NCBI RefSeq assembly: GCF_040054535.1
Contig: NC_090784.1
Coordinates: forward strand, 16,500,001-16,564,000
Direction of reading: 5' to 3'
Source: Antennarius striatus
Taxonomy: Eukaryota > Chordata > Actinopteri > Lophiiformes > Antennariidae
DNA: 64,000 nt
Positions 35,533 to 43,578 of this stretch are shown here, one piece after another. Position 1 is the stretch's first letter. Each line of letters starts with the position of its first letter. Both the position numbers and the translations under genes were made by a program. The notes beneath the pieces were generated by a model. The model was given only the letters and a program-made list of their open reading frames with translations. It was not told where the DNA came from and did not search any database.

Positions 35533-38500
35533 ATGGATTGTGCACTGCTGTTGCTGCTGTCACTGTGGGCTCTGATTGGAACGGCGTCCCTGCAGGCTTC
35601 AGGTAAGCCCTCTGAGTCCATTCATCACTCACACCTGATAGATATCACCGAGCCCTCCGTGCACAACAAACACAGCTGGACTGTTGCTAAATACGAGGGA
35701 TAAATGAGGAGAGGCTGTTTATTGAGCATCCTCAGGCAATGGAATTATTGAACAGCTGGGCCCCCCTCCCCTCCCACTGGTGCTTTGCTTGGTAGATGAT
35801 ATTAAATTTAAGTAATATCAATTTAAAGATTATATGTAACCTGGTGTAGCTGCCTGCACAATTAAACTGCACTAATTGCTATTAGGACTAATGCAGTGGG
35901 CTAACATGGTGTTGACTGGGTATTATGTACATATTAGATGATAGATTGTGCAGTGATTGAAGCAGATCTCAGTGGATCAGTCACGTTTAAACTATAAAAA
36001 TTAACATACCATACAAAACGTGTCTAAGTTGGATCCTTTTTGATCTTTCACATAGCTTCAAGTGATTCCTGTTAATTAAGAATTCTGCTCCATATCTCAT
36101 TATAAGCAGGAATTGTTTAGTTTTCTGTTGATTTTCCCTGTATAAGCTGAACAATTTGTCCTCATGTTGTTCTGAGACAATCATATGCATTAGAGCTGCA
36201 CGTGTGCGGTGACGTGTTGTGGGCAGAGACAATACAACAGTGCACATGTTTTCATTTCGTGAAATGAAAAGTGGGGAGCCCTATCGATGCCCCGCTCCAC
36301 CCCTCAACATTTTCTGGAAATTTAGGTTGTGTTGATGTTGGCTTTTAATGCAGAAAGGGTGAAGGATGTGGTTTTAAGTAATGATGGAACACATATGGAA
36401 AAGGGAGGAGATGTTAAGGATGCTAACTTACTCTCACAGATTAATGATGTTGAAATGTGAAATGAAATTTTAGATTAAGTTATATTCTTGACAAAATGCT
36501 AGTTACAGATGACGTTCTCTTTGTTTCATTAAAAAGACTGAGGAGTAGTAAAGCTTGCCTTTAACATACTTAACAATGTGGCAACTTGGGGGTGGAAAAT
36601 GTTTGCCCACACCCCCACTCTCAATTTACCTTCTTTCAAAGACAAAACAAAGCAGAATGGCAAACAAAAGTTAAAGCCCCCCAGCTTTGCAGTTTTACAA
36701 GGGGCAATAAATGGAGAAGAAGCAAACAAGGGGACAGTTGTTGTGATAATGTGTGTGTGTGTGTGTGTGTGTGTGTGTGTGTGTGTGTGTGTGTGTGTGT
36801 GTGTGCGTGTGTGTGTGTGTGTGTGTGTGTGTGTGTGTGTGTTACCACCACAGGGTCGTGTCCGGAGAGACTTCTGGGAGAGGAGAGGAGGAGGTCGTGT
36901 CCGCGACACTGCAAATCCGACAGAGACTGTGGCAACAAACGCCAGTGTCTGTGTGACGGCCAGTGTGGTCTCAGCTGTGTGGCTCCAGGTATCTGTTTGC
37001 ATGAGTGTGTGTGTGTTTGTGGTACTCACTGAGACCACCATTGTGGCCTCAGTCATTAAAAGCCTGTGCATGTGTGTTCTCAGCTGTGCGAGCATATATC
37101 ATCACACTGTGGACATGTTGTATAAAATCTAGGATTTGTGTGTGAGAGTTAATCACCACATTTTTATTATTTGTGTGCTCCATTTGTAAATGGTTTACGT
37201 TAACTGTCTTTATAAAGAATAATCCTGTCCATTACATTTGGTGTCCTTCCTTTTTCTCCTTTTCTCGTCAGGTCGGACTTGTCCCTGGCCTCTACCCCAC
37301 AGTGAAAACTCAGAGGTTCATCTCCTCTCTCCCACTCACTCGTTTTCTGCACTGCTTGAAGTGCGTTGCAAACAGGGATTTGCGTTACCCAGTGGTTTGG
37401 ATGTAACTATTCGCCGTTGTCAAGGTGACCGGCAGTGGAGTGGGGATGAGCCCATCTGCACAGGTGGGTTTGAGTTCAACAGAAAAATGTTAATATCCTG
37501 GTCCCTTCATGAGGAGGAATTCATACTGTGGATAATGAGCATCTGTAGCGACGCCGCTGCTCAAATTAGTTTGTGTCTTGAATTGAACAACGTGTGCCTG
37601 GATTAAACAGAAGCAGCACGCCGTGTTTACGTGACTGCATCTGAAGGGTTCATGCATCCCGGTCAGTAATGTGGTCCAAGGTTTAACACTCCTTTTTAAA
37701 AAAAATAAATTTGTGTTTATGCAAGATAATCAGACAGAAAGAGAGAGAGAGAGAGAGAGAGAGAGAGAGAGAGAGACAGAGAGAGAGAGAGAGAGAGAGA
37801 GAGAGAGAGAGAGAGAGAGAGAGAGAGAGAGAGAGAGAGAGAGAGAGAGAGAGAGAGAGAGAGAGAGAGAGAGAGAGAGAGAGAGAGAGAGAGAGAGAGA
37901 GAGAGAGAGAGAGAGAGAGAGAGAGAGAGAGATAGCGATATTCAGGAATGAACTCCTCTGTGATTGCATTGACTGAGATATTGCACAACTGGGACCGATT
38001 CTCCTCATCACCATGGCAACCACTGCTTTAGTTGTTCATATTGGTTATTTGAAGATTTAACTCTTGAACTGTTGATAATGTGAAAGACAGCTGAATGTGT
38101 ATGTGTTTGTGTGTGTGTGTGTGTGTATGTGTGTGTGTGTGTGTGTGTGTGTGTGTGTGTGTGTGTGTGTGTGTGTGTGTGTGTGTGTGTGTGTGTGTGT
38201 GTGTGTGATGTGCATATGTGTGTTTGTGTATGTGCATGCGTGCACACACATATTTCACATGTGTGTTATTTTGCACCTGAAATGCAGAAAACTGAATTCA
38301 GTGTTCCCGCGTGTGTGAAATCAGAGTCTCTTATGTCTGACTGTTGTTTGTGTTGTTGTTGTTGTTGTGTTGTTGACACCCTTGCCTCATTATTAAGTGT
38401 ATACATAAGTGGACTGCAAAGGGTTTATGTTTTCTTATTGGAGAGAAGACAAAATAAATTCTGCCCAATATAAAATTCCGCATCTAAACATACAACAGCC

Positions 38501-41500: not shown

Positions 41501-43578
41501 TGGCTAAGTGAGATGAATGGCAGGGTATTCATTTTGATCTCCCAGCTGATTGAACTCCACTGAACTAACTAGGTCATTACTGTCTTATCGTGTATTGACT
41601 CTGCTTTACACTGACTCATCCACAGGATGAGCCTGAATGGATGTGTGAGCCAGAGCGGTGCAACATTTAGAGACTGTAGAAGGGTGGAAAATGAATGATT
41701 TACACCTTTTTAATCACATTTTTGTTGGATGCAGCTCCTCTGCTGTCACTACTGTAAGTGTCACACTGCCATCTGTCTCATTCACTCTCTCACTTTTCCC
41801 CTACAGGTCAGATGTAGTGGGGAGCAGTGAAAATTTCTGCCAAGATAACCAGACCTGGCAGTATCCTCACCCCATCTGCAAAAGTAAGTGTATGGTAGTG
41901 GATTCAGTCTCGCACATTTGCATTTTCTTTATCCTTTTGACTTTCATGTTTAATTTGTAGGATGAAAATTTATTTAATGCATGATCGTCTGTGCGTGCCA
42001 ATAGTCAAAAAAGAGTGAATCACAGAGTGACAGAAACACATTTATCTTCAAGTATGAAGCGTTTCCAGAACACAGGATGTCTGCAGTGCTTTTCTGCCAT
42101 CTTGTGTTAATAATAGGTACTGCATGGCCTGTTCCAAAAGGAGGAACACAAAGGTCTCATAATATTCACTGCACCGACCGTGACACACTCTATATTTAAT
42201 TAAAAATAAAAGGAAAAAAAACCCGTTACTATTTATGGTTTAGGGCGCATGTGTCAAACTCAAGGCCTGGGGGCCAAATGTGGCCCGCCACATCATTTTA
42301 TGTGGACCACCAGAGCATAAAAGGTAAGAGCGTCTAAAAATAAATAGGTCAAAAGTGTGTTTCGACCAAAACTACATTTCCCACAATGCAGCAATTCAGT
42401 TCATTTTAACACTGACAAAAACGTTTGAACAAAGTTAATGTCCTAACTTGTGTTTGATGTTATTTTTCTTTATACACTTGTATAGTTTGATCCTGGATTG
42501 ATGGATTTATGTGGGTTGTATGTTATGTTATAACAGAGCAACAAGCAAACATGTTTTTTCTGTGTAACTATAATGTTTGTCACTTGAATAAGTAATAAAT
42601 TCAGAGTTATTTAACATTAAGGAGTAGTTATATTTATTTTACATTACCTCGAGTTATATTTAGTTACATTTATAAGTTATATCTGGCCCTTTCAGGACAG
42701 CCGTAATGCTGATGTAGTCCTCGTTGAAAATGAGTTTGACACCCCTGGTTTAGGGGATCGTCGGAATAACCTGCTGCTTCTCTTATTTTCTTAGAAGTGT
42801 ACTGCGAACCTCCTCGAGAAGTGGAACAGGGCTACGTGGTGGCTGTCCATAAAACTGAGTATGAAGTCGGTTTTGACATCCACTACCTTTGCAAGAAGAA
42901 CTTCTTGCTGGATGGACCCCAGAAGGTCACTTGCCTGTCCAATGGCAGCTGGAGTGCATCGCCTCCATACTGCAGAGGTGGGAGATATTTGGAATGCCAT
43001 CCCCAGTAAACATACTGTATGTATTTGATGGTATTGAATTTGTTAAAGCCCAAAAGCATTCACATTTGATTGGTTTTTTTTACCCCCAGTCCAAAGGCAA
43101 TGCAAACATACTACCAGACATTTGTTTTCCTTCAGAGGCCTGCACACACGATCCTACATTTTGTGTTTGCTGCTCATACTTTCAAACCCTGTTCATCAAT
43201 TTCCCAGCTCGCTGTCTCATCTCTGCTGTGCGGAGCCGTGTGGTTATTGGTGGAGTGAAGCGCTGGCCATTCGACATCACAGACGCCATGGTTCCTCACG
43301 GAGAGAACGTGACGTTCTACTGCAAACATCCTCACAAGCAGTGCAGCTTCACTACAACCCAGACTTGCTTTGATGGAAACTTGCAGCCTCCATCCTGCTA
43401 CCTTGGTAAAAACATGAATGACCCAAACAGGCCTTTAGGTAAGAAAAGTTCTAATGGAGATGTTTGGGAATTTCAAGCACCTCTTTGTTTTGCAGAGCCC
43501 ACATGGTTGCAGTATCAGCTCTTCCCTCACCGGCTGGTCTCGGAGGTTGAGGCGTGCGAGCCTGATGATGTGGAGTGA
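35533..43578 (+). CDS. Secreted WAP-like plus sushi protein with an APOH domain V-like C-terminus (8 exons)
   Basis: Exons are 35533-35602, 36854-36988, 37272-37463, 41198-41321, 41807-41883, 42795-42977, 43208-43405 and 43496-43578. All phases agree, giving 353 residues. Residues 1-20 are a signal peptide (LLLLLSLWALIG). Residues 24-68 hold eight cysteines in a WAP-like order ending QCLCDGQCGLSC, with C-x-C where classical WAP domains have adjacent cysteines. Sushi (CCP) domains follow at about 70-132, 143-199 (split over two exons at the second base of a codon, as is common in this family), 202-259 and 262-325. The last one (RVVIGGVKRW, VTFYCKHPHKQCSF, CFDGNLQPPSC) plus its 27-residue tail with a final Cys parallels domain V of beta-2-glycoprotein I (APOH), which binds phospholipid. 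One WAP plus four CCPs replaces APOH's five CCPs. I know no gene symbol for it. A plasma or innate-immunity role is inference. Confidence 0.85.
36751..36842. repeat. (GT)n microsatellite touching a splice acceptor
   Basis: About 45 GT units with one GC interruption near 36806, ending 11 bp before the acceptor of the WAP exon at 36854. Confidence 0.97.
37740..37932. repeat. (GA)n microsatellite, about 193 bp
   Basis: Almost pure GA with a single GACA interruption near 37777. It is a long polypurine/polypyrimidine tract inside the intron. Confidence 0.97.
38097..38208. repeat. (GT)n microsatellite
   Basis: GT run with a few TATG interruptions near its start. A further imperfect GT/CA-rich stretch follows to about 38250. 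Confidence 0.95.
39407..39457. repeat. (GT)n microsatellite
   Basis: About 25 uninterrupted GT units in the same intron. Confidence 0.95.
41070..41156. mobile_element. 87-bp retroposon-like insertion with 14-bp target duplication
   Basis: TGAATAAAAGATCT occurs immediately before (41056-41069) and immediately after (41157-41170) the insert, with no mismatch. The insert contains CCTTTCGGCTTTTCCCTTCA, then GGGGTCGCCACAGC, and a pyrimidine-rich end, a sequence I associate with a dispersed fish repeat. A 14-bp duplication fits target-primed (LINE-type) insertion rather than a cut-and-paste transposon. Confidence 0.8.
42246..42747 (+). mobile_element. hAT-type MITE, copy A (502 bp)
   Basis: Perfect 8-bp target duplication GTTTAGGG at 42238-42245 and 42748-42755. 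The ends are TGTGTCAAACTC on the left and GAGTTTGACACCCCTG on the right. There is no coding capacity. A sister copy lies in opposite orientation at 48150-48648. Confidence 0.92.

Follow-up and report, generated by a model that had tools for sequence, protein, structure and literature searches.

The 64,000-nucleotide stretch of the Antennarius striatus genome analysed here (NC_090784.1, positions 16,500,001 to 16,564,000; hereafter the window) contains, at positions 35533–43578 of its forward strand, an eight-exon gene which would specify a secreted protein with a leading WAP module, three sushi domains and an end resembling the fifth domain (domain V) of apolipoprotein H (APOH, or beta-2-glycoprotein I). 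The initial annotation had placed eight exons between these coordinates, and this was confirmed from the genomic sequence alone: beginning with the ATG at 35533 and closing with a stop codon that ends at 43578, the exons join into an open frame of 353 residues without internal stops. All exon borders are GT-AG, the intron phases are 1,1,1,2,1,1,1, and introns 1 to 7 measure 1251, 283, 3734, 485, 911, 230 and 90 bases, respectively. The exon edges were set by testing alternative AG and GT positions up to 3 bases away. Two combinations of edges preserve a single frame with the expected domain motifs, and these differ by one residue through the acceptor of exon 6.

Exons and domains

Exon 1 (35533–35602) carries the start codon and a predicted signal peptide, its hydrophobic N-terminus having been recognised by eye in the sequence. 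The WAP module, with eight cysteines, is encoded by exon 2 (36854–36988; 135 nucleotides, phase 1-1), and sushi 1, which opens with GRTCP like mature human APOH, by exon 3 (37272–37463; phase 1-1). Sushi 2 is split by the phase-2 intron between exon 4 (41198–41321), which holds its first half and alone gives no Pfam match, and exon 5 (41807–41883), which holds the second half and alone matches Sushi below the cut-off (E-value 0.018). Exon 6 (42795–42977) encodes sushi 3, nearest to human APOH domain IV; its NAGNAG acceptor (42791–42798) allows a start at 42795 or 42798, the frame being kept either way. The core of the domain V-like module lies in exon 7 (43208–43405), and its tail in exon 8 (43496–43578), together with the stop codon; the tail includes a hydrophobic loop and the extra last cysteine. 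A candidate polyadenylation signal (AATAAA, a motif match only) is found at 44045–44050, approximately 470 bases 3' of the stop. The WAP module, sushi 1 and sushi 3 each occupy one phase 1-1 exon, and modules of this phase are the layout expected from exon shuffling.

Three further features of the introns can be noted. Intron 7 (43406–43495, 90 bases) is stop-free and in frame; if retained, it would add 30 residues to the domain V tail and lengthen the protein to 383 residues. Intron 3 includes a very long GA tract at 37740–37931. A hydrophobic run from intron 2 (37223–37271) into sushi 1 resembles a signal peptide; it has no in-frame ATG, and was rejected as the pyrimidine tract. With regard to the promoter, HNF1-type sites gave no signal, 48 matches being found against 39.9 expected, a number reached in 14 of 100 shuffles; a match with three mismatches at 35298 was not counted as evidence.

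As a check on the proposed architecture, the initial annotation had called for a search for the WAP, Sushi and Sushi_2 domains. All were recovered from Pfam-A above their curated cut-offs: WAP at residues 23–68, three Sushi stretches (E-value 3.5e-25), and Sushi_2, the family of the fifth domain of beta-2-glycoprotein I, at residues 260–347. The WAP match scored 29 bits (E-value 1.3e-6) in the whole protein and 35.5 bits (E-value 1.2e-8) in a 48-residue segment, the cut-off being 20.8, while Sushi_2 scored 106 bits (E-value 8.9e-31; cut-off 22.1) and was covered at 88 of its 88 profile positions. Human APOH, used as a control, returned four Sushi stretches and Sushi_2 (E-value 1.9e-36). The mature chain has 26 cysteines, distributed as 8+4+4+4+6 over the five modules.

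Hidden Markov models built from these domains, those of this protein included, detected no additional copy of a sushi, WAP or domain V module among the six-frame open segments of at least 15 residues in the window (next-best E-values 1.2, 1.2 and 0.29). The 3,734-base intron 3 thus yielded no additional sushi exon. Rfam gave no match at gathering scores across the window. In collections of viral and prokaryote sequences, which are silent on animals, 1 and 22 stretches, respectively, fit a search pattern and none encodes a relative.

Relationship to apolipoprotein H

The relationship to APOH is carried by the last domain. Searched alone against solved structures, it retrieved human APOH first (E-value 1.4e-9) and then factor H (2.7e-6). 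It shares 26 of 82 aligned positions with human domain V, with a z-score of 9.4 against 300 shuffles in which Cys and Trp were kept; the scores against the other four human APOH domains range from -0.6 to 1.0. All six cysteines are retained, in the spacing 35,6,7,9,22 (35,6,7,9,19 in human domain V). The Sushi_2 match, the spacing and the alignment thus bear out the description of an APOH domain V-like end with its extra cysteine. Sushi 3 fits human domain IV best (z-score 6.6, with 5.0 for domains I and II) and is the only one of the three sushi domains for which a domain-by-domain assignment to human APOH worked. The whole protein matches APOH with an E-value of 2.4e-26, in a single collinear stretch.

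Human APOH is described as having eight exons, with the variants Ser107Asn in exon 3 and Trp335Ser in exon 8 (PMC4814826), so that the domain V tail appears to have its own exon in both genes. The two also share the order of sushi domains followed by a domain V-like end with an extra last cysteine, the number of exons, the hydrophobic tail loop and the GRTCP motif. They differ in that human APOH has four sushi domains before domain V and no WAP, whereas three sushi domains and a front WAP were found here, and in the net charge of the mature chain, which is +6 in the human protein and -8 in this one. Since three ordinary sushi domains and a WAP were found where the APOH family has four ordinary sushi domains, we file the protein as a variant relative of APOH and not as APOH itself. 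Two histories may be proposed: a gain of the WAP together with the loss of one sushi domain, or a WAP that occupies the former place of domain I.

By overall E-value, the best matches of the whole protein among solved structures are complement receptors 1 and 2 and factor H, a ranking which results from their long chains of sushi domains. This raises the question of whether the protein regulates complement in soluble form, or acts as a cofactor, its sushi domains engaging C3b-like proteins and its domain V or WAP serving only for localisation. Complement receptors, factor H and decay-accelerating factor do dominate the solved relatives, and human APOH is itself reported to regulate complement through domains 1–3, in an article that also describes an ordered pattern of regulator motifs over consecutive sushi domains (PMC6683126). 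Such complement matches, however, arise from sushi domains of any function, and we consider this explanation rather unlikely.

The WAP module and its exon

The eight-cysteine, WAP-like module with which the initial annotation opened the protein was recovered as such, all eight cysteines expected of a Pfam WAP match being present, but it is atypical. Its cysteine spacing is 12,3,5,5,1,3,3, as compared with 12,3,5,5,0,3,4 in nawaprin and 6,8,5,5,0,3,3 in elafin; the loop between Cys2 and Cys3 is short, and Cys5 and Cys6 are not adjacent but separated by one residue. The spacing is nearest to that of nawaprin. The waprins are single WAP modules from snake venom, and nawaprin shares the first half of the spacing (12,3,5,5), whereas its Cys5 and Cys6 are adjacent, it is a stand-alone module rather than the head of a sushi chain, and the match to it is weak (E-value 0.03). 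Single-sequence AlphaFold2 modelling of exon 2 gave a weak fold of middling confidence (mean predicted local distance difference test score of 71.3, predicted template modelling score of 0.46), with a hairpin of two strands, at 30–33 and 39–42, toward its end.

It had been suggested that the WAP gives the protein an antiprotease role. In its fuller form, this explanation describes a plasma defence protein in which domain V would direct the molecule to lipopolysaccharide or membranes and the WAP would inhibit a protease or be microbicidal. The Pfam WAP match agrees with it, as does the rank of elafin, another eight-cysteine WAP, as best solved match of the module (E-value 0.0025); in addition, beta-2-glycoprotein 1, not necessarily the product of this gene, is discussed as being induced in catfish skin after infection (PMC3762756). 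"Beta-2-glycoprotein 1-like" proteins are listed in trout serum (PMC6838116); neither the trout nor the catfish account is tied to this gene.

The inhibitory site of elafin sits in the Cys2-Cys3 loop. This loop has 3 residues here and 8 in elafin, the spacing before Cys3 being 12,3 instead of 6,8, and for this reason elafin-type protease inhibition is unlikely on sequence grounds. As the WAP is only mildly basic (net charge +3) and domain V has fewer lysines than its human counterpart, the defence explanation as a whole also appears unlikely.

Exons 1 and 2 could alternatively constitute a separate small WAP gene, with the sushi gene starting elsewhere. A signal exon and a WAP exon would suffice for a small secreted WAP protein, and the acceptor of exon 2 is weak. 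Against this, the donor of exon 2 is in the phase needed by exon 3, which lies 283 bases away, and the open segment from 37223 has no in-frame ATG ahead of the sushi 1 codons. We regard a division into two genes as very improbable.

Among the seven acceptors, that of exon 2 is the poorest in pyrimidines (12 of 22 positions of its tract; 14–21 of 22 in the others). Upstream of it, at 36750–36841 on the forward strand, is a TG tract of 92 bases with one interruption, which stops 12 bases short of the acceptor's end and is a candidate for control of exon use. The use of human CFTR exon 9 is reduced by TG tracts that precede a weak acceptor. From the six TG tracts of at least 30 bases on the forward strand, the chance that one ends within 15 bases of a given acceptor was estimated at 0.0014, or about 0.01 over seven acceptors, in what is a post hoc test. 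Exon 2 can be skipped in frame to leave 308 residues; this property is not special to it, because exons 3, 6 and 7 allow the same. That skipping of the WAP exon is tied to the TG tract and produces WAP-less forms is a guess from sequence.

WAP and sushi domains are already known together in animals, being joined in LEV-9 and Hasp; it is the addition of domain V that is new. LEV-9 of Caenorhabditis elegans is described as having one WAP and eight complement control protein (CCP) domains, and Hasp of Drosophila as having one WAP followed by up to seventeen (PMC9083331). The protein might therefore be a vertebrate member of this old family of synaptic scaffolds, clustering surface receptors, with APOH as its WAP-less sister. 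Its order, with the WAP first and the sushi domains behind, is that of LEV-9 and Hasp, which like it are secreted and combine one WAP with a row of sushi domains; the likeness is one of described domains.

On the other side, the domain V-like end, of which the relevant part of that description makes no mention for either protein, points to APOH rather than to LEV-9 and Hasp, the sushi domains number three and not eight or up to seventeen, and the WAP of LEV-9 is reported to be dispensable for receptor clustering (PMC9083331). WAP modules are also recorded in other mixtures, for instance with Kunitz domains (PMC11408880), so an independent assembly of WAP and sushi would have been easy. Membership of the scaffold family is distinctly unlikely. 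A bolder form of the idea makes the gene what vertebrates retain of an ancient bilaterian group of WAP and sushi proteins that cluster receptors at synapses, with APOH the sister that shed its WAP and the TG tract switching between a WAP-bearing and an APOH-like form; to this we attach very little credence.

A probable APOH paralogue and its setting

Taken together, we favour the reading, with a probability of about 0.5, that the gene is intact and encodes a secreted APOH-family protein, consisting of a signal peptide, a WAP, three sushi domains and a domain V-like end, and probably an APOH paralogue with an extra WAP exon and one sushi fewer, which would work as a membrane-attached, non-inhibitory protein. 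In the mechanism we propose, the domain V loop would dip into membranes or lipoprotein surfaces, the sushi domains would keep the front end off the surface, and the WAP, whose short Cys2-Cys3 loop suggests that it is no protease inhibitor, would serve as a small, disulphide-tight binding head; WAP-less forms may arise by skipping of exon 2. Within the proteins grouped around APOH it is an unusual one, and no new kind of system. We recognised no description of a protein with WAP, sushi and domain V in the open-licence PubMed Central literature that was searched.

A number of observations count against the APOH paralogue. Despite its GRTCP start, sushi 1 fits human domain II (z-score 4.1) slightly better than domain I (3.2), and sushi 2 fits no human APOH domain well (best z-score 2.4, with domain I), so that the identity of the missing sushi, or whether the WAP takes the place of domain I, is ambiguous. 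Sushi 1 to 3 by themselves are no proof of APOH kinship, since the best overall matches are CR1, CR2 and factor H. At the WAP, elafin leads nawaprin by E-value among solved structures. In domain V, the human CKNKEKKC corresponds to CKHPHKQC, so that two of the four lysines of the patch are kept and the lysine-rich patch is not fully preserved, and the net charge up to the last cysteine is +1 instead of the human +5 (-3 when the acidic tail of this protein is included).

In human APOH domain V, the CKNKEKKC lysine patch binds anionic lipid. The initial annotation had considered the protein to be membrane-targeted, partly on account of binding of lipopolysaccharide by domain V; the reduced patch and charge weaken this lipopolysaccharide and anionic-lipid basis, while membrane targeting as such remains plausible. 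On the Wimley-White interfacial scale, the tail loop ahead of the last cysteine ranks as the most interfacial segment of the mature chain at 4, 6 and 8 residues. The equivalent loop of human APOH (LAFW) ranks first at 4 and 6 residues and falls outside the best four at 8. Attachment to membranes through domain V is therefore likely from the sequence, and its membrane end would lean more on insertion and less on charge than that of human APOH.

Elsewhere in the window, Pfam identified a Shisa-type gene (Shisa_N; 2506–3354), two C2H2 zinc-finger genes (18516–23294 and 45332–47800) and a SAP-domain gene (63039–63764; E-value 3.9e-9) which runs toward the end of the window. In the Shisa-type region, which extends over 2506–6024, a further open segment at 5104–6021 lacks a Pfam match and terminates in EVTV, resembling a PDZ ligand. 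A PAR-type bZIP exon is located at 32534–32746 (bZIP_2, E-value 2.5e-17), its closest solved chains being VBP and NFIL3; the exons of this gene span 27851–32746 and include an upstream LLWDRTLP motif.

The basic region and the LLWDRTLP motif resemble those of DBP, and the SAP-domain gene could be MAMSTR or a member of the myocardin family. In human, DBP and MAMSTR, a SAP protein, are close together on 19q13, and HLF and APOH are on 17q. DBP and HLF are old duplicates. This arrangement fits, and does not prove, an old APOH duplicate which lies beside a DBP-like gene and was lost in mammals.

In antiphospholipid syndrome the main antigen is APOH, whose physiological role is still disputed. A relative that retains the membrane-facing end, with an altered lysine patch and a WAP head amounts to a natural domain swap, which could separate the insertion of domain V from the effects of its charge. 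If the gene is an old APOH duplicate located next to DBP, or is related to LEV-9 and Hasp, it would inform the origin of APOH.

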